This document shows, in pieces, positions 33,928 through 46,748 of a DNA stretch of 64,000 bases. Each line of letters begins with the position of its first letter. Position 1 is the first letter of the stretch. Source of the stretch: Spiribacter curvatus (GTDB lineage: Bacteria > Pseudomonadota > Gammaproteobacteria > Nitrococcales > Nitrococcaceae); NCBI RefSeq assembly GCF_000485905.1, contig NC_022664.1, forward strand, positions 620,001-684,000, read 5' to 3'. Both the position numbers and the translations under genes were made by a program. Under the pieces are notes generated by a model. The model had not been told where the DNA came from. It ran no database searches and saw nothing but the letters and a program-made list of their open reading frames with translations.

Positions 33928-33958
33928 TTCCGGTTCAGCCGGGACGGAGGTTATGAAT

Positions 33959-36601
33959 ATGGCGCAGAGCACAGTCAGGGATTTTGCAGACAGGACGGGT
34001 GTGCCGCTGGATCGGTTGCTTATTCAGCTCCGTGAGGCAGGCATCCCCAACGACGACCCCGATACCGCCTTGTCTGACGCGGACAAGACCACCCTGCTTG
34101 AGCACATCCGCAAGACGCATGGCCGCCGGGATGACAGTGAGGAAGGCGGTCCCTCGCAGATCACCCTCAAGCGGCGCAGCCATAGTCAGCTCAAGATGCC
34201 CTCTGGTGGCGGCGAGCGCCGTGCGCCACGGGGTAGCCGCGGGGCGGGTGCCGGTCGGACCGTCAATGTCGAGGTCCGCAAGAAGCGCACTTACGTGAAG
34301 CGCAGCGTGGTAGAGGCCGAAGCCGCTGAACAGGATGCCCAGGTTCTCGAGCGCGCCCTGCAGAAAGATGTGAACGCGGCCGAGGAGGCGCGTCAGGCAG
34401 AGGCGCGGGTCAAGGCCGAGGCCGAGGCGAAGGCCGAGGCAGAACGCCAGGAGCGGGAAGCCGCGGAAGCAGCCGAAGCCGCCGCCCGTGAGACGGAGCG
34501 GACCGAACAGCCTGAGTCCGATACTGAGACGCCGGAAACGGCACCCGGTGAGGCCGCAGCAGAGGTTCAGACGCCGGCCGACCTGGAGGCGGATTCCCAG
34601 AAGTCCGAGTCCGAGGCGGCCCGCAATAAAGAAATCGAGGACGACAAGGAGCGTAAGCGCCTTGAGGCCGAGGCCAAGCGTGAGCGCGAAGCCGAGGAGC
34701 GTGCGGCTCGCAAGGCGTCCCGGGGTAAGGGTAAGGCGCGCAAGAAGGCCGAGGCCGGCGGCCGTCGATCCAAGCGAGGCGGCGGCGCGGCCGGCGCCGC
34801 GAGTTCCGCACTCCAGCAGGGCTTCGAGAAGCCGACCGCACCCGTCATACGCGACGTCCAGGTGCCGGAGACGATCACCGTTGGCGATCTCGCCCAGCGG
34901 ATGAGCGTCAAGGCCGCCGATCTGATCAAGGAGATGATGAAGCAGGGCGTCATGGCCACCATCAATCAGGCCATTGATCAGGATACGGCAGTGCTGTTGG
35001 TCGAGGAGCTCGGCCATCGGCCGCATATCGTGCGGGAGAACGATCTCGAGGAGGCGGTCCTCAGCCAGACCACTGAGCCGGAGGGCACTGAAGAGCCGCG
35101 CTCGGCAGTGGTCACGATCATGGGGCACGTCGACCATGGCAAGACGACGCTGCTCGACTATATCCGCCGCGCCAAGGTTGCATCCGGCGAGGCGGGGGGG
35201 ATCACCCAGCATATCGGCGCCTATCGGGTGCCGTCTGAGCGCGGCGATCTCACATTCCTGGATACACCCGGCCATGAGGCGTTCACGGCGATGCGTGCCC
35301 GGGGCGCCCAGGTGACCGATGTGGTCATTCTGGTGGTGGCGGCGGACGACGGTGTGATGCCGCAGACCGAGGAAGCAGTCAAGCACGCCCGCGCTGCTGG
35401 TGTGCCGCTGGTGGTGGCGGTCAACAAGATCGACCGTGAGGAGGCGGATCCCGACCGGGTCAAGAATGAGTTGGTCGCCCGCGAGGTCGTTCCCGAGGAG
35501 TGGGGCGGTGATACGCAGTTCATCCCCTGTTCGGCCCTGAATGGCCAGGGGGTCGAGGCACTGCTCGAGGCCGTCGCGCTGCAGGCTGAGCTACTCGAGC
35601 TCAAGGCGGTCCGTGACTGCCCTGCCTCTGGCGTGGTGGTGGAATCGAGTCTCGACCGCGGCCGGGGTCCGGTGGCGACGATCCTTGTCCAGAACGGCGT
35701 GCTGAGTCAGGGCGACACGATCATCTCCGGTACCGAATTCGGCCGGGTCCGTGCGCTGCTCGACGAGCGCGGCGAGCGGGTCACATCCGCCGGTCCGTCC
35801 ACACCGGTAGTGGTGCTGGGGCTGTCCGGGCTACCCGAGGCAGGTGATGAGGTCCTCGCGGTCGAGGACGAGCGCAAGGCCCGCGAGCTGATTGAGCGTC
35901 GCCGGGAGAAGAGCCGCGACAAGCGGCTTCAGGCCCAGAAGGCCGCGCGCATGGATGAGCTGTTCAACCAGGCGCAGGATGACGTCGTGAAAACCGTCAA
36001 CCTGGTCATCAAGGGTGATGTCCAGGGGTCGGTGGAGGCCCTGACCCAGTCGCTCGCCAATCTCTCCACCGATGAGGTGCGGATCGTGCCGGTGGCAACC
36101 GGCGTTGGTGCCATCAACGAGTCCGACGTCAACCTGGCGATGGCCTCTGAGGCCCTGCTGATCGGGTTTAATGTGCGGGCAGACGCCAAGGCGCGACGGC
36201 TTGCGCAGGAAAACGACGTCAAGCCGCATTACTACAGCATTATCTACGATGCGATCGACCAGCTTCGCAATGCGATCAGCGGCATGCTCGAGCCCGAGAC
36301 ACGCGAGCATATCATCGGCACCGCCGAAGTCCGCGAGGTGTACCGCTCCTCGCAGCTCGGCCAGATCGCTGGCTGTCTGGTCGTCGACGGTGTGGTCCGT
36401 CGACGGAATCCGATCCGCGTGCTGCGCAACAGTGTTGTCGTTTTCGAGGGAGAGCTGGAATCGCTGCGGCGCTTCAAGGATGACGTCAAGGAAGTGCAGT
36501 CCGGGACCGAATGCGGTATCGGCGTCCGCCACTACAATGACGTCCGTGTCGGTGATCAGATCGAGTGTTACGAGCGCGTCACCATTGAGCGGACGCTGTA
36601 A
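33959..36601 (+). CDS. infB: Translation initiation factor IF-2
   Basis: GTPase that brings fMet-tRNA to the 30S subunit and promotes subunit joining. I use ATG 33959 (880 aa), 8 bases after GGAGG; the ATG at 33953 is only 2 bases from it. The N-terminal IF2_N domain (residues about 1-55) is followed by a very long charged Ala/Glu/Lys/Arg helix region to about 270, then a second IF2_N-type segment. G1 is [12 protein letters not shown] near 388, G3 is DTPGHEAF, and G4 is NKID. Domains II-IV complete the C-terminus. No truncation is seen. Confidence 0.97.
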
Positions 36602-36603
36602 CG

Positions 36604-36984
36604 ATGCCGCGGGATTTCTCGCGGGCACGCCGCGTTGGCGATCAGATCCAGCAGGAGCTGGCCGGGCTTATCCGCGACCAGGTCCGCGATCCCCGGGTGG
36701 GATCGGTGACCGTCTCGGAGGTGCGCGTCAGTCGCGACTTCTCCTATGCCGATGTATTCGTGACCGGCCTGGGGATGGAGGCGGAGGAGTCGCAAGAGAT
36801 GGTGCGGGTGCTCACCGGCGCGGGTAACTTCCTGCGCCGTGCGCTCGCCCAGCGGCTGACGCTGCGCAAGGTCCCAGTGTTGCGGTTCCAGTATGATCCG
36901 ACATTCGATCGCGGCGCGCGCCTCAATCGGCTGATCGACGATGTCCAGCCGGATGAGGGTCCGGCGACACCGGACTCGGACTGA
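36604..36984 (+). CDS. rbfA: 30S ribosome-binding factor RbfA
   Basis: KH-fold assembly factor (126 aa) that binds immature 30S particles near helix 1 of 16S rRNA. Typical features are RRVGDQIQQELAGLIRDQVRDPRVG at the N-terminus (residues about 10-34), VSRDFSYADVFVT, and LRKVPVLRFQYDPTFDRG near 95-112. It starts 2 bases after the infB stop and lies 9 bases before truB. Confidence 0.95.
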   Translation: MPRDFSRARRVGDQIQQELAGLIRDQVRDPRVGSVTVSEVRVSRDFSYADVFVTGLGMEAEESQEMVRVLTGAGNFLRRALAQRLTLRKVPVLRFQYDPTFDRGARLNRLIDDVQPDEGPATPDSD

Positions 36985-36993
36985 CCGGCCGCG

Positions 36994-37923
36994 ATGGCGC
37001 GTCGCAAGGGTCGGTTCATCGACGGCATCCTGCTGCTCGATAAACCCGGCGGCATCAACTCCAATCAGGCGCTGCGCCGGGTCAGTCGCTGGCTCGATGC
37101 CCGCAAGGCCGGCCACACCGGCAATCTCGACCCGCTGGCGACAGGGCTGCTGGTGCTCTGTTTCGGCGAGGCCACCAAAATCAGTGGCTGGCTGCTTGAT
37201 GCCGATAAACGCTATGTCGCCACGGCGCGTCTGGGCATTGTCACGGACAGCGCAGACGCCGACGGCGAGGTTCTCTTGGAGCGGCCGGTGCCGGCGCCCG
37301 ATCACGATGGCCTTGAGGCGGTCCTGGCCCGTTTCCGCGGGGCGGTCTCGCAGGTACCGCCGATGGTCTCGGCGCTCAAGCACCAGGGGCGTCGGCTGCA
37401 TGAGCTCGCACGCGAGGGCAAGACCGTCGAGCGCCCCCCGCGGCCGGTCACGATCCGCTCACTGACCGGTCACTGGATTGGCCCGGATCGCCTGCAGCTG
37501 ACGGTTGACTGTTCCAAGGGCACTTATGTGCGCAGCCTGGTCGCTGATATCGGTGAGGCGCTTGGCTGTGGGGCACATGTCGAAACGCTGCGGCGCACCG
37601 CACTGGGGCCATTCTCTGGTGAGGGCATGTCGACATTGGAGCACCTTGAGGCCCGGCGCGAGGCTGATCCTCACGGTCTGGATGAGCTCCTCCTGCCCCC
37701 TGATCAGGGGCTTGTCGACTACCCGGCAGTCATGCTCGGGCGTGAACAGACGCCCGCCTTCTGCCAGGGGCAGCGAGTCGCCGGCGCCGCTGGCTCACAA
37801 ATGCCCGCAGGGCTGTGTCGGGTCTACGCCAACACCGGCATATTCCTCGGTATCGGGCTTGGCGATGCCGAACACGGGGTCGCGCCGCGGCGATTGCTTG
37901 TTCAGCGCAGCCCCCACGGCTAG
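36994..37923 (+). CDS. truB: tRNA pseudouridine-55 synthase TruB
   Basis: Makes pseudouridine 55 in the T loop of tRNAs. The product has 309 aa. [16 protein letters not shown] opens the protein, the catalytic Asp is in [16 protein letters not shown] (about residue 47), and the thumb region contains [21 protein letters not shown]. The C-terminal PUA-like domain is present. Its TAG stop coincides with a possible -10 (TAGAAT) of an rpsO promoter. Confidence 0.96.
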
Positions 37924-37926
37924 AAT
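37898..37926 (+). promoter_or_regulatory. Putative rpsO promoter overlapping the truB stop
   Basis: TTGTTC, 17-base spacer, TAGAAT, followed by an AT-rich leader (37921-37955) that stands out from the GC-rich surroundings. E. coli also has a promoter between truB and rpsO. The -35 match is weak. Confidence 0.4.
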
Positions 37927-37967
37927 ATTCAGTTGTAGTTAATCAAGTTTTCAATCAGGAGTCATTG

Positions 37968-38237
37968 ATGTCGCTCAGCGCTCAACAGAAGCAGGAGATC
38001 GTCCGTGATTACGGACGCGCCGACGGGGACACGGGATCCCCGGAAGTGCAGATCGCCCTTCTGACCGCCCGTATTCAGTACCTTACCGATCATTTCGCCA
38101 CCCACAAGCAGGATCACCATTCCCGCCGCGGTCTTCTCAAGCTGGTCAACCAGCGTCGCCAGCTGCTGGATTATCTGCATCGCAAGAGCCTCGAGCGCTA
38201 TCAGTCGGTCATCAAACGACTGGGCCTGCGCAAGTAA
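37968..38237 (+). CDS. rpsO: 30S ribosomal protein S15
   Basis: Primary 16S rRNA-binding protein of the 30S platform, 89 aa, the normal length. Blocks such as [32 protein letters not shown] and [17 protein letters not shown] are diagnostic. AGGAG stands about 7 bases before the ATG. In E. coli S15 represses its own message by binding a leader pseudoknot; the AT-rich leader here could do this but I cannot fold it by eye. pnp follows after 33 bases without a terminator. Confidence 0.98.
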
Positions 38238-38270
38238 GGCTTTCCACAAGAGACCAGGGGATAAATCTCA

Positions 38271-40382
38271 GTGACTCCAACCGCCGTCAAAAAGTCGTTC
38301 CAGTTCGGGGAACACAACGTCACGCTCGAGACCGGCAAGATCGCCCGTCAGGCGAGTGGTGCGGTCATGGTCAACATGTCCGACACCGTCGTCCTTGTCA
38401 CCGTCGTCGGCAAGCGTGAGGTCGTACCCGGGCGAAGTTTCCTGCCGCTCACTGTCAACTATCAGGAGCGGACCTACGCGGCGGGCAAGATCCCGGGTGG
38501 GTTTTTCAAGCGTGAGGGCCGTCCCTCCGAGAAAGAAACCCTGGTCTGCCGCCTCATCGATCGGCCGATCCGGCCGCTGTTCCCGAACGGATTCACCAAC
38601 GAGGTCCAGGTCGTCGCGACCGTCATTTCCATGAATGACGAGGTCGATCCGGACATCCCGGCACTGATCGGGACGTCCGCCGCGCTGGCCGTGAGTGGCA
38701 TCCCGTTCGAGGGGCCCATCGCCGCCGCCCGCGTGGGCTACAATGACGGTGAGTTTATCCTCAACCCCTCGTTCACCCAGCTGCAGAGCTCTGAGCTCGA
38801 TCTGGTGGTTGCCGGTACTGAGCAGGGCGTGCTCATGGTCGAGTCCGAGGCCAACCGCCTGCCCGAGCAGACCATGCTTGATGCGGTCCTGTATGGCCAC
38901 GAGCAGATGCAGTCGGCGATCAATGCGATCAAGGAGCTCTCCGCCGAGGCCGGCAAACCGCGCTGGGACTGGGAGCCGGAACCGACCGACGAGTCCCTGA
39001 CCGCCCGGGTCCGTGAGCACGCAGAGAAGCCACTGACCGAGGCCTATGCGGTTGCTGATAAGCAAGCCCGTCAAGAGGCGATCGCGGCCGTCCGCAGTGA
39101 CGTCACCACCGCCCTTGTGGCGGACGGTGAGAGCGAGGACGGCTGGAGCGCCGAGGCGGTCAGCGATGCCTTCAAGGACCTTGAAAAGACCATCGTCCGT
39201 GGCCGCATCATCGCTGGGGAGCGTCGGATCGACGGGCGTGACAACTACAGTGTCCGGCCGATCGACATCGAGGTTGGCAGCCTGCCCCGGACGCATGGAT
39301 CCGCGATCTTCACGCGGGGTGAGACGCAGGCCATGGTGGTGACCACCCTGGGCACCGGCCGTGATGCGCAGATAATCGATGGAATCGAGGGCGAGCGGCG
39401 CGAGCAGTTCATGCTCCATTACAACTTCCCGCCTTACTGTGTGGGCGAGGCCGGTTTCATGGGAACGCCGAAACGTCGTGAGATTGGTCACGGCAAGCTT
39501 GCCAAGCGCGGTGTTGAGGCGGTCATGCCGGAACCGGAAGACTGCCCCTACGTGGTCCGTGTCGTCTCCGAGATCACCGAGTCGAACGGTTCAAGTTCGA
39601 TGGCGTCGGTCTGTGGCACCAGCCTCTCGCTGATGGATGCCGGTGTGCCCCTCAAGGCGCCGGTGGCCGGTATCGCCATGGGACTGATCAAGGAAGGTGA
39701 TGACTTTGCGGTCCTGACCGATATTCTCGGTGACGAGGACCACCTCGGCGATATGGACTTCAAGGTCGCCGGCACCGATAACGGTGTGACCGCACTGCAG
39801 ATGGACATCAAGATCGATGGCATCACCCGCGAGGTGATGGAGCAGGCGCTGGCGCAGGCCCGCGACGGCCGGCTGCACATCCTTGGCAAGATGAATGACG
39901 TCATCGCCGAGCACCGTGAGGAAATGTCGGTCTATGCACCCCGGCTCATCACCCTGCGGATCGATCCCGACAAGATCCGGGATGTGATCGGCAAGGGCGG
40001 CGCAACCATCCGCCAGTTGACCGAGGAGACCGGCACGACGATCGATATCACCGACGAGGGAGTTGTCACGATCGGCTCCACCGACAAGGCTGCGGGTGAA
40101 GAGGCGCGCCGGCGGATCGAGCTGCTCACGGCGGATGTTGAGGTCGGCCAGGTGTACGAGGGCAAGGTCATCAAGCTGATGGACTTCGGGGCCTTCGTGA
40201 ACATCCTGCCAGGGCGTGACGGGCTGGTGCACATCTCCCAGATCTCGGAGCGCCGCGTTGAGAGCGTTGCGGATGAGCTGGCCGAGGGACAGAGCCTCCG
40301 GGTGAAGGTCCTCGAAGTCGATCGTCAGGGACGGATCCGGCTCAGCATCAAGGCGCTGCAGGAAGAGGGCGCCGAGGGCTAG
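38271..40382 (+). CDS. pnp: Polyribonucleotide nucleotidyltransferase (PNPase)
   Basis: Phosphorolytic 3'-5' exoribonuclease of the degradosome, 703 aa. Two RNase PH domains surround an all-helical linker. The first contains [27 protein letters not shown], within residues 77-104. The second contains the active-site Asp residues in [19 protein letters not shown] near 485-503. KH ([16 protein letters not shown] near 572) and S1 ([20 protein letters not shown] near 630) follow. A GTG start is used; no ATG is placed to replace it. It ends the operon. Confidence 0.97.
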
Positions 40383-40458: not shown

Positions 40459-42528
40459 CTAGAAAGCGCGTTGCTGGCGGCGGAATTCGACCATTTTCTC
40501 CTGCGCGCTGACTGCATCGTTGAGGCGCACGATCCCCGCGTCGGGTAGCAATTCGAACAGCTGGATCAGGATCTCGGCGGTGGTGAGGGAGTCACCCAGG
40601 GCGGTATGCCGACCGCCAACGCCTACACCCAGCCGTCGGGCCACGCCCTCGAGCGTATGCTCGCCGGTATGGTCATGGAGCATGATCGACAGCAGCAGGG
40701 CATCCAGTGTGGGGTGGTCGAAGCGAACACCGCAGCGGCGTTGTTTGAGCCGCAGAAACCGCATGTCGAATGCGATATTGAATCCCACCAGTACAGCATC
40801 GCCGGCAAAGGCGTGGAACCGCCGGACGGCTTCCTCCACCGGCGGCGCGTCGGCGACATCCTCATCCCTAATGCCGTGAATGCTGGTGGCAAGGGCGGGG
40901 ATTGAGCGATCTGGATTGGCGAGCAGTTCGAATGTCTCGCCGTGCATGACGCGTCCCTGATGGATACGGACGGCGCCAATGGCGACGATCTCATCACCCT
41001 GGCCGGGTGCCAGGCCGGTGGTCTCGCAATCGAATACGACATAATCCAGATCGGTCAGTCGCCGCTCCGCCTGATCGCCCAGGGCCAGAACCGGATCGGC
41101 CTCATCGGCGGCAAAGTCATAGAACTCGGGGCGCGCGGCGATGGCGCTCGGGGTCTCGGTCTTCTCCGGCGCTCCGGGGAGTGGCAGCCGCAGCATTGCT
41201 CGACCGACGCGCGACAGATCCGCCTGGCTCCAGGCGGTGGTGTCATGGCGTTGCAGGACCTCACGCAGGGAAACGGTTCCACCCACGTCATCCAGTCCCG
41301 CATCGAGCCACTCATCAAGCTGATCTGGCGCGACCACGTCGCCAGACCAGTTGATGTCGAGGTAGACCAGGCTACCCTGTTCACGCCCGGTGATCGCGAC
41401 GGCCGCGATGTCGAGCGCACTCGCAAGCCGGACGAGCAGTGCCTCGATCACTTGACTGAGTAGATAGGGCTCCGCCGATACCCAGACATCCGCGCCGCAC
41501 TGGATCCGTGGCATGCCGGCCGACTGGCTGTTTTTCTTGATCCCGGAGATGAGACTGCCGAGGTGCAGATCCTCCAGCCGCCAGTTATCCGTGACCATCG
41601 ATGTGGTCTCATCAGAGAGATGCGAAAAGGCCTCGGTCAGACGGCGGGTTTCTTCCTGGACCATCAGGCCGAAGCGGTCGGCTTCGGCGCCAAGATTGGC
41701 CTGTTGTGCGAGCCGTAGGCTCTCGCTGACTGTATAGAGGCTGGTCAATGGGTCGCGTAGCGACTCGACCGCCGCGCGGAGGCTCTGCTCGCGACGCAGC
41801 ACGGCACGGGTCTGACGTGAGACGTCAGTCAGGGTGATGACGAAGCCGTCGGTGCCGGGGTCGTCGGTCATCAATCGTGCGACTCGACAGCGCAGGAGTC
41901 GCTCACCACTGGCGGTGGCACAGACCAGCTCGGTGTCGGTGCCGCTGGTGGTGTTCGCGGTCGGATCGATCAGGCCCAGTGCGTGCCGCAGCGGTCCATC
42001 ATTGAGCACCTCGTTGATATTCCGGCCCAGCCCCAGCGCCGGCTCGGCATCGAGCAGGGTCCGCGCCGTGCGGTTATAGAGATTGATGCGGCCGTCGGTC
42101 CCGCAGACCACCACGCCTTCACGGATTTCCCGCAGGATGGTCTCGAGCCGCGCTTTCCGGGCCTCGATGCGGGTGGTCCAGGCCGAGGCCGCCTCCTCCA
42201 TCTCTCGCCGGCTCCGGGCAACCGTGCCGCCGAGCTGTTCCACGGTCTCAGGCAGGCGGCCCAGCCAGTGATGACCACCCAGCTCAAGCTGATGACCGGG
42301 GTTGGAGCCGGCGATGATACCGGCGCCCCGTTCGGTCGCGCTCAAGGGCCGAGTGATCCGCCAATCGAGGACCAGACCGATGCCGGCAACGCCCACGCCG
42401 ATAACGCCTCCGCCGAGCAGCGGGTGCACGCTCGCCAGCATCGGTGCCACTGCCGCCGTGGGCGCGCCGATGGCGGCCACCGACCCCCAGAGTCGCTTGC
42501 GCAACCGCGGCAGTCGAAATGCCCTCAC
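40459..42528 (-). CDS. Membrane-anchored degenerate histidine kinase fused to DEDDh 3'-5' exonuclease
   Basis: A 689-residue fusion. Two transmembrane helices (about residues 14-33 and 38-56) are followed by a HAMP-like stretch and coiled coil, then a PAS domain (about 128-235, REIREGVVVCGTDGRINLYN). Next is a DHp-like segment where VESLRDPLT (254-262) replaces the H-box, so Glu255 stands where the phospho-accepting His should be. The HATPase-like part (about 320-450) lacks the N-box Asn and recognisable G boxes. The C-terminal DnaQ/epsilon-type exonuclease (about 494-665) looks intact: Asp500 and Glu502 (DCETTG), Asp588 (NIAFD) and His641/Asp646 (HTALGD). It starts 2 bases after the pseudo-receiver gene. 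Nuclease activity is likely; substrate unknown. Confidence 0.85.
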   Translation of the reverse strand: MRAFRLPRLRKRLWGSVAAIGAPTAAVAPMLASVHPLLGGGVIGVGVAGIGLVLDWRITRPLSATERGAGIIAGSNPGHQLELGGHHWLGRLPETVEQLGGTVARSRREMEEAASAWTTRIEARKARLETILREIREGVVVCGTDGRINLYNRTARTLLDAEPALGLGRNINEVLNDGPLRHALGLIDPTANTTSGTDTELVCATASGERLLRCRVARLMTDDPGTDGFVITLTDVSRQTRAVLRREQSLRAAVESLRDPLTSLYTVSESLRLAQQANLGAEADRFGLMVQEETRRLTEAFSHLSDETTSMVTDNWRLEDLHLGSLISGIKKNSQSAGMPRIQCGADVWVSAEPYLLSQVIEALLVRLASALDIAAVAITGREQGSLVYLDINWSGDVVAPDQLDEWLDAGLDDVGGTVSLREVLQRHDTTAWSQADLSRVGRAMLRLPLPGAPEKTETPSAIAARPEFYDFAADEADPVLALGDQAERRLTDLDYVVFDCETTGLAPGQGDEIVAIGAVRIHQGRVMHGETFELLANPDRSIPALATSIHGIRDEDVADAPPVEEAVRRFHAFAGDAVLVGFNIAFDMRFLRLKQRRCGVRFDHPTLDALLLSIMLHDHTGEHTLEGVARRLGVGVGGRHTALGDSLTTAEILIQLFELLPDAGIVRLNDAVSAQEKMVEFRRQQRAF

Positions 42529-42530
42529 GC

Positions 42531-42905
42531 TCAGGCGGCTCCGCTGACCAGTGACCGCACTCGGCCAAGGATCGTGGCGGGGTCAAAGGGCTTGACGATG
42601 AAGTCAGTCGCACCGAGCGAAAATGCCTTCTCGCGCTCGACCTCCAGGCTGTGCGAGGTCAGCATAAGGATCGGCAGACTGGCTGTTCCGGCACCGGAGA
42701 GCAGCCGCTGACAGAGGTCATAACCGCTTCGGTCAGGTAGCGTGGTGTTGACCAGCGCCACGTCGGGACAGGCCTCAGCCATGGCAGCCTCGGCCTGAGC
42801 GCAGCTACTTGCGAGCGCCACCTGAAACCCGGACTGCTCGAGCAGGAATCGAAGCGCGCTGGTCAGATTGGATTCATGGTCGACAATTAGAATCGTTTTA
42901 ACCAT
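42531..42905 (-). CDS. Receiver-domain protein lacking the phospho-accepting Asp
   Basis: Single CheY-like receiver domain (124 aa) with no output domain. The fold is clear: ILIVDHESN at strand 1, ALVNTTLPDRSGYDL at strand 3, ILMLTSHS at strand 4 (Thr kept) and FIVKPFDP at strand 5 (Lys kept). The residue aligned with the phosphorylated Asp is Asn53 (codon AAC), and the second acidic residue of strand 1 is His10. It therefore should not be phosphorylated in the usual way. It is the first gene of a two-gene operon with the pseudo-kinase/exonuclease, so direct interaction is a reasonable inference. The immediate ribosome site is weak. Confidence 0.88.
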   Translation of the reverse strand: MVKTILIVDHESNLTSALRFLLEQSGFQVALASSCAQAEAAMAEACPDVALVNTTLPDRSGYDLCQRLLSGAGTASLPILMLTSHSLEVEREKAFSLGATDFIVKPFDPATILGRVRSLVSGAA

Positions 42906-42952
42906 AAGCCACTCAGCACCTCACGGATGCTGCCTCCTCCTCTTTTTCCCGC

Positions 42953-42983
42953 AGTATAGGCTACTCCATCGCCCGTTTGTCGA
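42953..42983 (-). promoter_or_regulatory. Putative promoter of the receiver/exonuclease operon
   Basis: On the minus strand TCGACA and TATACT are separated by 19 bases. Between it and the receiver ATG lies a strong ribosome-site-like GAGGAGGAGG followed by a three-codon reading frame starting GTG (42914-42925). Confidence 0.4.
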
Positions 42984-43026
42984 GGTACGCTGACGCAACA
43001 GTCAATCAATGCCCTCGGAGATTCCC

Positions 43027-44913
43027 ATGACGGATGCCACTGCGAGCACTGACGCCTCGGTCGTCCGCGCCTTTCTCGATTCCCATGCGCCCTTTGATCG
43101 GCTGCCGCGCGCGCTACAGCGGTATTTCCGCGAACACTGTGAGCGCTGCGACTACACCGCGGGCACAATCATTCTCGAGCCCTCGACACAGCCGGCGGCG
43201 TACTTTTATCTGATCGTGGAAGGCCAGGTTCGCGCGGAGCGGCCGGGGGGTGAGCGCTTCGAACTCGGCCCGGGTGACAACTTTCCGATGGCGGCAATGG
43301 TGGGGCAGCGGGCAACGCGGACGGTCTATCGGGCGGGGACCCCGGCAAAGTGCCTGCGCATCCCCCGGACGACGTTTGAGCATCTGATCAGCGAGAGCCC
43401 GATCTTCCGCGACTACTGCCTGCGCGGTGTGAGCGGCCTGCTCGATCAGGTCCAGCAGGATATCCAGCACCGCGCCGCGGGGAATCTGGGCGGCGATACC
43501 ACCATGGATACGCCGCTCGGCGAGCTTATGAACGCCCGGCCGCTGACCTGCGAGGCGCAGATCTCGGTGCGTGACGCGGTGGCGGCAATGCACAGCCGTA
43601 AGGTGGGCAGTGTGCTGGTGACTGACCCGGAAGAGCGCCCACGCGGTATCTTCACGCTGCATGATCTGCGCTCGGTGGTCGCCGATGGCAGTCATCTGGA
43701 CGAGTCACTGGCGAGTGTGATGACCCGTGAGCCGATCACCCTTGACGTCAAGACCTACGCCTTTGAGGCGGTGGTGGAAATGGCGCGTCACCACATCCGG
43801 CACATGATCGTCACCGATCAGGGTGGACGCCTCGCCGGCGTCATCTCCGAGCGCGACATATTCGCGCTGCAGCGGATCAATCTCGTCCATCTCACCCGCT
43901 CGATCACTGGGGCGGAGGACGTCGACGCACTGGTGCTCGCCCGCGGTCAGGTTGGCGCGTTGATCGACAGCATGATGGCGCATGGTGCCGGTGTTGAGCA
44001 GATCACCCGAATCATCACCCTGCTCAATGACCGGACCGTCACCCGTGCGATCGAGCTGGTGCTCGCGGAGCGGGGCGATCCCGGTGTGCCATTCACGTGG
44101 ATCGCATTCGGCAGTGAGGGGCGCCGCGAACAGACCCGCGTCACCGATCAGGACAACGGCATTCTGTTCGATCCCGGCGGGGAGACACCGGAGGCGGTGC
44201 GCGAGCGCCTGCTGCCACTTGCCCGGCGGATTAATGAGGTACTGGATGCCTGTGGTTTCGCGCTCTGTACCGGGAACGTCATGGCCAGCAATCCGGGGCT
44301 ATGCCTGAGTTTCGAGGAATGGGAAGCGACCTTTCGGCGGCTGGTGGGTAGCGCCACACCAGAGAATGTCCTCCACTCGACCATCTACTTCGACTTTCGT
44401 CCGGTCTGGGGGGATCTGGCCACCGGTGAGGCGCTGCAGCGCCGGGTCGTGGAGCTCGCGGCCAGCAATTCGGTATTCCTCCACACCCTTGCCAGCAACT
44501 GTATGGCGATCAAGCCGCCGCTCGGCGTATTTCGGGATTTTGTCACCGATCGGGATGATGACGGTGTTCACCGGTTGGATCTCAAGGTGCGTGGTCTGAC
44601 GCCGTTCGTCGATGCTGCACGGGTGCTGGCGCTGCAGGCCGGTATCGCCGATGGCCATACCCAGACGCGATTCCGCGAGCTGGTCAGAGCCGGCGTACTG
44701 ACGCCGGAGGATGCTGGTGCTTTCGAGCGCTCTTTCGCTTTCGTGCAGCTTCTGCGGATGCGCGAACACCAATACCAGTCGACCAGCGGGGATCGGATGG
44801 GCAACCGGCTGGATCCGGAGGGCGTGAATCCAATGGACCGCCGGATCCTCAAGGAGGCGTTCCGCGAGGCGCGGCGGCTTCACAAAAAGCTCGAAGTGCG
44901 CTTCCAGCTATAA
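43027..44913 (+). CDS. cNMP-binding / CBS / DUF294 nucleotidyltransferase-like protein
   Basis: A 628-residue cytoplasmic signalling protein. Domains in order: cyclic-nucleotide-binding fold (about 25-125), two CBS repeats (about 165-222 and 230-285), a GlnD-type nucleotidyltransferase domain with GSEGRREQTRVTDQDNG (Gly362-Ser363, Asp374 and Asp376) and a helical DUF294 C-terminal domain (about 455-600). Such proteins probably sense cNMP and adenosine nucleotides; what they modify is not established as far as I know. The start at 43027 has GGAG 6 bases upstream. It diverges from the receiver/exonuclease operon and converges on the symporter. The neighbourhood suggests a role in acetate or carboxylate use. 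Confidence 0.9.
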   Translation: MTDATASTDASVVRAFLDSHAPFDRLPRALQRYFREHCERCDYTAGTIILEPSTQPAAYFYLIVEGQVRAERPGGERFELGPGDNFPMAAMVGQRATRTVYRAGTPAKCLRIPRTTFEHLISESPIFRDYCLRGVSGLLDQVQQDIQHRAAGNLGGDTTMDTPLGELMNARPLTCEAQISVRDAVAAMHSRKVGSVLVTDPEERPRGIFTLHDLRSVVADGSHLDESLASVMTREPITLDVKTYAFEAVVEMARHHIRHMIVTDQGGRLAGVISERDIFALQRINLVHLTRSITGAEDVDALVLARGQVGALIDSMMAHGAGVEQITRIITLLNDRTVTRAIELVLAERGDPGVPFTWIAFGSEGRREQTRVTDQDNGILFDPGGETPEAVRERLLPLARRINEVLDACGFALCTGNVMASNPGLCLSFEEWEATFRRLVGSATPENVLHSTIYFDFRPVWGDLATGEALQRRVVELAASNSVFLHTLASNCMAIKPPLGVFRDFVTDRDDDGVHRLDLKVRGLTPFVDAARVLALQAGIADGHTQTRFRELVRAGVLTPEDAGAFERSFAFVQLLRMREHQYQSTSGDRMGNRLDPEGVNPMDRRILKEAFREARRLHKKLEVRFQL

Positions 44914-44993: not shown

Positions 44994-46748
44994 TCAGGCC
45001 GCGCGGGGCACCCGGATACTCTCCACCAGGTCCTGGATTTCCTTCGGCGGCGGTGCCGTGGATCGGCACACCAGCGTCGCAACCACGGCGTTAATGACCG
45101 CGCCCACTGCGCCGATGGACTGTGGGCCAATGCCCAGCAGCCAGTTCTCAGGGTTGTCCGGCAGCATGTTCGTCCCCGGGACGAAGAACCAGCCCTTGAA
45201 GATGAACACATAGACCAGCGTAAAGGTGAGGCCCGAGAGCATACCGGCGATGGCACCGGCACTGTTCATGCGTCGGCTGAAGATCCCGAGCATCAGGACC
45301 GGGAACAGCGAGGAGGCCGCCAGTCCGAATGCCAGAGCCACCACCTGTGCCGCGAATCCTGGTGGATTCAGGCCCAGATAGCCCGCCACAAGGATAGCGA
45401 CACCCATGGCCACGCGGGCCGAGAGCAACTCACCTTTCTCGCTGATTCTGGGGTTGAGGACACCCTTGATCAGGTCATGCGAGATCGCCGAGGAGATCGC
45501 CATCAGCAATCCGGCCGCCGTGGATAGTGCCGCCGCGAGTCCGCCGGCCACCGTCAGGGCGATGACCCAGTTCGGCAGCTGCGCGATCTCCGGGTTGGCC
45601 ATCACCATGATGTCCCGGTCCACCGTCAGCTCGTTACCGGCCCAGCCATACTCCGCGGCGGTGTCATCAAATGCCGCATTATCGTCGTTGTAGTACTGGA
45701 TACGGCCGTCGTCGTTCTTGTCTTCCCAGCCGAGCAGACCGGTCTCTTCCCAACGCGAGAACCAGCCCGGCACGTTCTCGTAGGCCAGATTGCCCTCTTC
45801 CGCCCCGATCTCGCCCGGCTGGACGGTGTTGATGAGGTTGTAGAAGGACATGGCCCCCACGGCCGGTGCGGTGGTGTAGAGAATGGCGATGAACACCAGT
45901 GCCCAGCCCGCCGACAGGCGCGCATCACGCACTCGCGGTACCGTGAAGAAGCGAACGATGACGTGGGGCAGACCTGCTGTACCGATCATCAACGACATGG
46001 TCAGGAAGAACATGTTGAGCGTTGTGCCCTTCATGACCGTGTACTGCGAGAAGCCCAGGTCAACGAGGATATTATCAAGCGTGTTGAGCAGATACTGACC
46101 GTCGCCGACCGTGCCGCCCAGACCGAGCTGCGGCAGCGGATTACCGGTGATCGCCAGGGAGATGAAGATCGCCGGAATGGTGTAGGCGAAGATCATCACG
46201 CAGTACTGCGCGATCTGGGTGTAGGTAATGCCCTTCATGCCGCCGATCACGGCGTAGAAGAAGACGATCGCCATACCCGTGAAAAGACCAATCTCGTAGC
46301 TCGTCTCCATAAAGCGTGAGAAAGCCACACCAATGCCCTTCATCTGACCGATGACATAGGTCAGCGAGGCCACGATCAGGGCGATGACCGCGATCACCCG
46401 CGCCGGCGTGGAATAGAACCGATCACCGATGAATTCGGGGACGGTGAACTTGCCGAATTTGCGCAGATAGGGCGCGAGCAGCAGCGCGAGCAGCACATAG
46501 CCGCCGGTCCAGCCCATGAGATAGACCGATGCGTCATAGCCAAGAAAGGCGATGAGGCCCGCCATGCTGATGAAGGACGCGGCCGACATCCAGTCGGCCG
46601 CCGTTGCCATGCCATTGGCGATGGGGTTAATCCCCTTGCCTGCCACATAGAATTCGCCGGTGCTGCCCGCTTTCGCCCAGATCGCAATACCGATGTAGAG
46701 CACAAAGGTGGCGCCGACAATTAGATAAGTGGTGAGAGAGAGATCCAT
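44994..46748 (-). CDS. Sodium:solute symporter large subunit, VC_2705 subfamily
   Basis: Na+-coupled transporter of the SSS family, 584 aa and about 13 helices. ATAADWMSAASFISMAG (residues 48-64) and IGTAGLPHVIVRFFTV (255-270) are family signatures shared with acetate permease ActP. An acidic soluble insertion of about 80 residues (310-392) between membrane helices contains an EF-hand-like loop, DKNDDGRIQYYN (343-354). With the DUF4212 protein encoded 15 bases upstream it fits the two-subunit VC_2705/VC_2704 type better than classical ActP-YjcH. Clustering with acs suggests acetate or another short carboxylate as substrate; that is inference. Confidence 0.9.
   Translation of the reverse strand: MDLSLTTYLIVGATFVLYIGIAIWAKAGSTGEFYVAGKGINPIANGMATAADWMSAASFISMAGLIAFLGYDASVYLMGWTGGYVLLALLLAPYLRKFGKFTVPEFIGDRFYSTPARVIAVIALIVASLTYVIGQMKGIGVAFSRFMETSYEIGLFTGMAIVFFYAVIGGMKGITYTQIAQYCVMIFAYTIPAIFISLAITGNPLPQLGLGGTVGDGQYLLNTLDNILVDLGFSQYTVMKGTTLNMFFLTMSLMIGTAGLPHVIVRFFTVPRVRDARLSAGWALVFIAILYTTAPAVGAMSFYNLINTVQPGEIGAEEGNLAYENVPGWFSRWEETGLLGWEDKNDDGRIQYYNDDNAAFDDTAAEYGWAGNELTVDRDIMVMANPEIAQLPNWVIALTVAGGLAAALSTAAGLLMAISSAISHDLIKGVLNPRISEKGELLSARVAMGVAILVAGYLGLNPPGFAAQVVALAFGLAASSLFPVLMLGIFSRRMNSAGAIAGMLSGLTFTLVYVFIFKGWFFVPGTNMLPDNPENWLLGIGPQSIGAVGAVINAVVATLVCRSTAPPPKEIQDLVESIRVPRAA

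Follow-up and report, generated by a model that had tools for sequence, protein, structure and literature searches.

In a 64,000-nucleotide stretch of the Spiribacter curvatus genome (NC_022664.1, positions 620,001 to 684,000; henceforth the window, whose own numbering is used throughout), we identified a gene for a membrane-anchored sensor protein that has the layout of a histidine kinase, lacks the kinase residues across its aligned family, and ends in a DEDDh-type exonuclease domain with its catalytic residues intact. A single-domain receiver is encoded directly upstream, and beyond it lies a divergent gene for a DUF294 protein, a predicted nucleotidyltransferase whose relatives are recurrently paired with exonucleases of this kind. 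The interpretation we favor, with a probability of roughly 45%, is a repurposed pseudokinase akin to DivL with an exonuclease as its output, which would be the nuclease half of a DUF294-exonuclease pair, DUF294 adding one or more nucleotides and the exonuclease removing them.

Domain architecture of the fusion protein

The gene starts with a GTG at position 42528 and is read on the minus strand down to position 40459. It comprises the following parts:

40459..42528, minus strand: fusion gene, 689 amino acids (transmembrane hairpin, PAS, pseudo-DHp, pseudo-CA, DEDDh exonuclease)
42307..42504, minus strand: predicted transmembrane hairpin and following helix, residues 9-74 (model helices 9-32 and 36-74; hydropathy)
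41809..42153, minus strand: PAS domain, residues 126-240 (PAS_4 and other PAS families in Pfam)
41593..41817, minus strand: DHp-like helical hairpin, residues 238-312, with Glu255 at the place of the phospho-His
41164..41592, minus strand: CA/HATPase-like domain, residues 313-455, without the N-box Asn, G1 and G2
40462..41058, minus strand: DEDDh exonuclease, residues 491-689 (RNase_T match; structural match to the PolC exonuclease)

Pfam matches cover the PAS domain (PAS_4, residues 134-240, E 1.7e-6) and the exonuclease (RNase_T, residues 497-654, E 2.6e-31), and hydropathy peaks at about residues 13-59. A full-length structure model (mean predicted local distance difference test score, pLDDT, 83.7; predicted template modeling score, pTM, 0.42) places in succession the membrane hairpin, a long helix, the PAS domain, two DHp helices, a CA-like α/β domain (residues 319-452) and the exonuclease, with a poorly ordered linker at residues 457-477. 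The two transmembrane helices and the PAS domain that the initial annotation had read from the sequence alone are all borne out. The model contains no periplasmic domain: the membrane helices are joined by a turn of three residues, and hence any signal must arise in the membrane or the cytoplasm.

A sequencing error or a pseudogene is ruled out as the source of this architecture, since it recurs at 67-90% identity in congeneric species and the ratio of nonsynonymous to synonymous polymorphism (pN/pS) is below 1. The ratio is below 1 for every domain in six pairwise comparisons, in which synonymous divergence (dS) is near saturation for many pairs; it ranges over 0.06-0.30 in the exonuclease, 0.08-0.60 in the DHp and CA parts and 0.22-0.73 in the transmembrane hairpin. 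A promoter scan at the locus found none, and a terminator scan marked two overlapping terminator-like sites inside the fusion gene, on the plus strand, against 1.3 expected.

Retention of the kinase fold and loss of the kinase residues

Pfam lists neither HisKA nor HATPase_c in the protein at E<=1, and its NCBIfam matches to WalK (residues 45-298) and PnpS (residues 101-365) fall far under cut-off. The kinase ancestry visible in these sub-threshold matches is shown by a profile comparison with a kinase of the same genome and by structure models. A profile of 64 relatives is collinear with that intact kinase, which we take to be NtrY-like, over profile columns 61-479 (E 7e-20), and Glu255 faces the phospho-His of the template. 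As the VIA list of the full-length model was filled by the exonuclease, residues 238-456 were modeled alone (mean pLDDT 85.8). The 50 matches listed in each structure search, including Foldseek, are sensor kinases or kinase-like chains, for instance DivL, LvrB, phytochromes and RetS. The match to HprS (Z 14.2) is mainly domain-wise, with a root-mean-square deviation (rmsd) of 11.3 over two domains, while the CA domain of PrrB is matched with Z 13.9 and an rmsd of 2.8 over 129 residues.

Residue conservation was examined over 98 aligned proteins. These comprise 69 rows, which remained after dropping 14 open reading frames (ORFs; fragments, solo exonucleases, duplicates, a frameshifted copy and one 507-residue form), and 29 loci from a phylum-wide search added by MAFFT, phylum matches without a locus being left unaligned. 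Two smaller alignments omit, respectively, five of the 69 rows (A1) and L004, L043 and L068 for redundancy together with L017, L066 and L081 for divergence (A2). None of the 98 rows has His in the H-box column, which reads E 66, R 14, D 4, Q 3, others 9 and gap 2. A motif of the H[EDNQ]x[RK]xP type is absent anywhere in these proteins, and no DHp column has His in more than 22 rows. Two rows, L249 and L251, are poorly aligned around the H-box and say little; in L251 (G612) about 40 DHp residues are unlike the family, perhaps through a local frameshift, and the H-box cannot be judged.

Measured against the single template kinase, the position of the N-box Asn is taken by Arg367 and that of the G1 Asp by Trp394, and the G2 glycines are not recognizable. 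Across the family, Asn occurs at the first of these positions in 4/98 rows, and the second column has W/P/R in 96/1/1 of 98. Trp394 is thereby one of several near-fixed residues of the family, the others being Trp349 (98/98), His428 (97/98) and Arg258 (95/98). Such near-fixed new residues, together with a pN/pS below 1 in every domain, indicate that the dead kinase part is maintained. Judged by alignment and predicted structure, the DHp-CA region has the fold of a kinase and not its chemistry. This agrees with the initial annotation, which had described a DHp-like helix with Glu255 for the phospho-His and an HATPase-like region devoid of the N-box Asn and the G boxes: the degenerate kinase fold that it expected is what the separate model shows, an intact His was found neither in the protein nor in its aligned relatives, and the fate of the His in related fusions, on which it had made no claim, is loss throughout. 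With none of the 98 retaining it, the His was most likely lost before the family spread.

Phyletic spread and variant forms

The architecture recurs in other genera and classes across Pseudomonadota. In the same genus a full-length fusion is present in 12 of 14 genomes, that of the window included. The fusion of G009 (L139, G009:C1:1035656-1037724) is split into two overlapping frames, by a frameshift or an assembly error, and that of G015 runs off the end of its contig. Searching the order at E<=1e-25 gave a match in 43/54 genomes, a few of them partial; searching the class at E<=1e-40 gave 20 among 369 drawn genomes, one being a solo exonuclease and one the 507-residue form; and searching the phylum at E<=1e-60 gave 51 among 398 drawn genomes, some matching over the C-terminal part only.

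In the family f218, from another class of the phylum, the DHp-CA region is seen to shrink. L197 is without most of the DHp, and four proteins of about 470 residues (L183, L185, L191 and L193) consist of a membrane part, a PAS-like region and the exonuclease, with no DHp-CA at all; Pfam lists no PAS for L183. These four sit beside SSS and DUF294 genes.

The exonuclease domain

The annotated DnaQ-type exonuclease proved to have an intact motif, with all five DEDDh residues in place (D500, E502, D588, H641 and D646), and the set is complete in 68 of the 69 aligned rows, the window's own among them. In structure comparison the domain matches the PolC exonuclease with Z 24.2 and an rmsd of 1.9-2.3. 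Its best NCBIfam match, PRK07740, is under cut-off, and PRK09146 reaches just 49.5 bits (cut-off 266); on these scores the fused domain appears to lie outside the solo PRK09146 subfamily. In a second fusion copy in G033 (L066, G033:C123:60119-62068; L118) the five sites read A, R, I, P, D, so that four of the DEDDh residues are missing, and yet the upstream receiver has its canonical residues; both enzymes of this copy are apparently dead.

An upstream single-domain receiver

The gene directly upstream of the fusion encodes a receiver, whose stop codon lies 2 bases before the fusion GTG:

42531..42905, minus strand: single-domain receiver, 124 amino acids (Response_reg, E 7.4e-23, Pfam)

Of 55 full-length fusions retrieved together with their flanking sequence (the window not counted), 39 have such a receiver immediately upstream in the same orientation, as against none of five f218 forms (the four without DHp-CA, and L197 with most of its DHp missing). 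The difference gives a Fisher p of 0.004, over rows that are related and groups that were not sampled alike. The presence of the receiver with full-length fusions but not with the f218 forms fits a receiver that would dock on the DHp, as DivK does on DivL.

The position of the phospho-Asp in 42 receivers is D in 37, N in four (the window, G021, G020 and G011) and E in one (G022). All five canonical residues (D, D, D, T, K) are found in 29 of the 42, 28 of them outside the window's genus. In the window's receiver the phospho-Asp is replaced by Asn53, because of which it is not phosphorylatable at the usual site; the second acidic residue is His10, and Thr83 and Lys105 are kept. The second acidic residue is lost in 12/13 receiver rows of the genus. 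The Glu of the G022 receiver (L096:10074-10475) could mimic permanent phosphorylation. From these distributions, the kinase was likely dead before the family spread, with the receiver decaying later in the window's genus and in G022.

Recurrent pairing of DUF294 proteins with exonucleases

Beyond the receiver gene, which stands between it and the fusion (40459-44913 for the three genes), lies a divergent DUF294 gene, followed by a transporter gene:

43009..44913, plus strand: DUF294 protein, 634 amino acids, with a cyclic nucleoside monophosphate (cNMP)-binding domain, two CBS domains, a nucleotidyltransferase domain (GS..R..DQD) and DUF294_C (Pfam)
44994..46748, minus strand: VC_2705-family sodium/solute symporter, 584 amino acids (TIGR03648, 838.6 bits, cut-off 320.75)

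The transferase residues G368, S369, R372, D380, Q381 and D382 are invariant in 61/61 DUF294 proteins. We observed an RNase_T-type exonuclease ORF within 6 kb of 55 out of 60 DUF294 genes (36/40 and 19/20 in two sets), the places without one being L189, L190, L205, L210 and L255; the chance expectation is about 1.9 of 60, taking the density of the window's own genome only (5 RNase_T domains per 1.93 Mb). The partner is downstream on the same strand in 54 of the 55 cases and within 150 bp or overlapping in 46. The sample is non-random: 40 places from distinct genomes were taken by E-value, and 20 more were hand-picked, among them the second copy of the window's own genome and the contig G496:C91, known to hold a fusion; several genomes repeat and some stretches fall short of 12 kb. 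The count of 36/40 was obtained with the window's exonuclease domain alone, and the later profile was built from the exonucleases of those first 40 places. Around the fusions, DUF294 was found in the retrieved stretch in 43 of 55 cases (phmmer, at least 60 bits); eight weaker-scoring DUF294 ORFs were confirmed by Pfam, one of them beside the solo exonuclease L135.

Over 56 rows (the 55 partners and the window's domain) the catalytic sites read D-E-E-H-D in 28, D-E-D-H-D in 25 and otherwise in 3. The window's genome encodes a second DUF294 with a solo exonuclease, in overlapping genes (L252:4917-7582; G000:C1 near 1,263,900-1,266,600); this exonuclease belongs to NCBIfam PRK09146 and is of the D-E-E-H-D type, with Glu at the third acidic position. 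In G178, a 217-residue solo exonuclease (L135:7406-8059) beside its Pfam-confirmed DUF294 shares 42% identity with the fused domain and could be an unfused form of the window's nuclease.

In a tree of exonuclease domains, 18 fused rows and four transmembrane-PAS rows fall on one side, and 20 solo partners with three DnaQ-type rows (one of them confirmed as DnaQ) on the other. The branch deciding this is weak (78/68), and of the outgroup rows L274 joins the fused rows by a very long branch and L278 groups with the solos; hence the tree does not settle whether the DUF294-exonuclease pair had a single or a double origin.

Symporters similar to that of the window (>500 bits) are found at 23 of 55 fusion loci and at 15 of 40 DUF294 loci. 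At three fusion loci (L109:9754-12427, L111:10200-12872 and L112:9705-12453) two more tandem DUF294 ORFs lie between the fusion and the symporter; those of L109, the one locus of the three put to Pfam, are without the full cNMP-CBS part. On its other side the window's fusion gene faces, in convergent orientation, a cluster with the genes of IF-2, TruB and PNPase (33953-40382), in which the genes between those named are presumably rbfA and rpsO. In some other genera, too, pnp falls within the sequence flanking the fusion (L095, L101, L102 and L105).

Comparison with characterized systems

The system is assembled from known parts. With NtrY/WalK-like PAS sensor kinases the fusion shares a collinear series of transmembrane, PAS, DHp and CA regions, whereas it has lost the catalytic His, the N-box Asn and the G boxes and gained a C-terminal exonuclease. 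With PolC/DnaQ-type DEDDh exonucleases it shares the fold and all five catalytic residues, and it differs from these in being membrane-tethered and sensor-fused with no polymerase attached. A third parallel is GlnD, a uridylyltransferase that also carries a uridylyl-removing HD domain: like the DUF294-exonuclease pair, it couples a transferase with a phosphodiester-cleaving enzyme. In the window the second enzyme is a separate DEDDh exonuclease rather than an HD domain, and an opposing action would be expected only by analogy. Further, we take PA3232 and PA3233 of Pseudomonas aeruginosa to be the counterparts of PP_0353 and PP_0354 of P. putida, to which we return below.

In the literature, DUF294_C is grouped with domains of the GlnD/GlnE type (PMC3710099). 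DivL of Caulobacter is a pseudo-histidine kinase that reads a single-domain receiver (PMC4211667); like the fusion, it has a PAS and DHp-CA fold without the phospho-His and is linked to a single-domain receiver, in the fusion an adjacent gene. However, DivL, which signals through CckA, retains the N, G1, F and G2 boxes, whereas the fusion has lost its N and G boxes and would act through the attached exonuclease.

The nearest experimentally tested relative, by gene context only, is PP_0353 of P. putida. PP_0354, a CBS protein, and PP_0353, an RNase_T protein, form an operon in the MxtR/ErdR (CrbS/CrbR) regulon, and PP_0353 and the symporter ActP-I are important for growth on pyruvate (PMC9927547). 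As in the window, an RNase_T exonuclease is paired with a CBS-domain protein in the company of an acetate/pyruvate-type symporter, there as a member of the same regulon. Unlike the fusion, PP_0353 is described by its RNase_T match alone, with no sensor part, and the two are compared by description. In P. fluorescens, the CrbS/R target Pflu5625 is a cAMP-binding, CBS and nucleotidyltransferase protein for which the authors predict nucleotidylation (PMC5715377); we infer that it and PP_0354 are DUF294 proteins. The genes PA3232-PA3235 of P. aeruginosa are up about 16-fold during growth on propionate (PMC9765439). The available text of PMC5436829 names no nuclease, PMC7698356 does not treat this locus, and we found no description of this sensor-exonuclease/DUF294 system in the open-access literature.

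A proposed sensor-controlled nuclease opposing DUF294

The initial annotation had proposed that in this sensor a nuclease has taken over from the kinase output, perhaps to turn over a nucleotide signal or a specific RNA. Sequence and structure back the exchange of outputs, the two substrates being candidates only, but the proposal had taken in neither the adjacent receiver gene nor the recurrent DUF294-exonuclease pair. In the interpretation we favor, a membrane-anchored PAS sensor descended from an NtrY/WalK-like histidine kinase would do no kinase chemistry, and its DHp-CA region would serve, as in DivL, as a dimerizing and receiver-docking relay, a docking module in place of an enzyme. The output of this relay would be the fused, predicted 3'-5' DEDDh exonuclease, as the degrading half of a recurrent unit that often adjoins a monocarboxylate-type transporter and whose other half is the cNMP/CBS-regulated DUF294 nucleotidyltransferase. 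DUF294 would add one or more nucleotides to a shared target, a protein or an RNA 3' end, from which the exonuclease would strip them. The balance of addition and removal would depend on the PAS signal and the receiver, so that in the fusion the sensor and receiver would set the rate of removal. We propose this opposition on the model of the two activities of GlnD; the direction of control and a link to organic-acid uptake in the window's genus would belong to the same proposal.

Several observations weigh against this interpretation. The activity of either enzyme is predicted and a shared substrate putative. In the window's species and three relatives, the receiver has lost the phospho-Asp and its usual phosphorylation-dependent input cannot operate, and by the search used 16/55 fusions are without a same-strand receiver directly upstream (two at a contig end, two with a divergent receiver). 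The f218 nuclease persists without the DHp-CA, which makes that region dispensable for the core function. No DUF294 lies in the stretch around 12/55 fusions, some of these stretches being short, and the partner L268, a weak 29-bit match, is without all five DEDDh residues. The Glu at the third acidic site in 28/56 rows may mean that solo and fused exonucleases differ in substrate. Among the pseudomonad genes, deleting PP_0354 or PP_0353 leaves growth on acetate unaffected (PMC9927547), the pflu5625 deletion has no clear phenotype (PMC5715377), and PA3233-PA3235 fall 2-fold right after propionate addition while a PA3234 deletion causes no growth defect on propionate (PMC9765439).

The strongest competitor, which we regard as possible though clearly less probable, is an RNase at the membrane that breaks down specific mRNAs of carbon metabolism or transport, DUF294 being just a co-regulated neighbor. 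The authors of PMC9927547 speculate along these lines for PP_0353, the structural matches of the exonuclease domain include RNase T, and the fusion gene and the PNPase gene of a translation and RNA cluster run toward each other. However, this reading leaves the exonuclease beside 55/60 DUF294 genes unexplained, and Pfam lists no RNA-recognition domain in the fusion. It is rather unlikely that the enzyme instead ends a signal at the membrane, as a phosphodiesterase acting on short oligonucleotides or on a nucleotide second messenger (pGpG, pApA or a DUF294 product). The DEDDh enzymes do include oligoribonucleases, and a small nucleotide could come from DUF294, whose cNMP and CBS domains accompany a predicted nucleotidyltransferase, but the best sequence and fold matches are exonucleases of the PolC/DnaQ type. 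That same similarity would suit an exonuclease for DNA repair or editing with a coupling to envelope stress, which we hold to be very improbable: the recurrent neighbors found are a transporter, DUF294 and a receiver, though no search was aimed at repair genes, and P. putida without PP_0353 grew like wild type with DNA added as a nutrient, which is not a repair test (PMC9927547). An active kinase is ruled out by the absence of the His, the N-box Asn and the G1 Asp, and one that works through a non-canonical residue or in trans, with the receiver as its target, is scarcely credible despite the canonical residues of 29/42 receivers (28 outside the genus), given no H-box His in 98 rows, His in at most 22 rows of any DHp column, Trp at the ATP-pocket Asp position in 96 and the N-box Asn in four. 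A role in anti-phage defense was also rejected, the PADLOC matches being generic ones to DEDDh exonucleases and receivers.

Implications

Returning to the sensor-controlled nuclease opposed to DUF294, a bolder extension, which we consider doubtful, is that DUF294 and its partner exonucleases form a widespread and undescribed system of reversible nucleotide tagging, whose eraser was captured by a dead sensor kinase in the window's family. DUF294 would write a nucleotide or short chain under cNMP/CBS control and the DEDDh enzyme would erase it, with the membrane PAS signal and the receiver setting the speed at which the mark is removed during monocarboxylate uptake.

The family shows what can become of a two-component system once its output chemistry is exchanged: the His of the kinase was lost, most likely before the family spread, the receiver was retained and is now decaying in the window's genus, and a nuclease would provide the output. 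An unexplained growth phenotype, that of PP_0353 on pyruvate, is moreover tied to a recurrent nucleotidyltransferase-exonuclease pair. The placement of a sensor-nuclease beside a nucleotide-adding enzyme suggests an undescribed way in which bacteria, while taking up organic acids, could control an RNA or a nucleotide mark.

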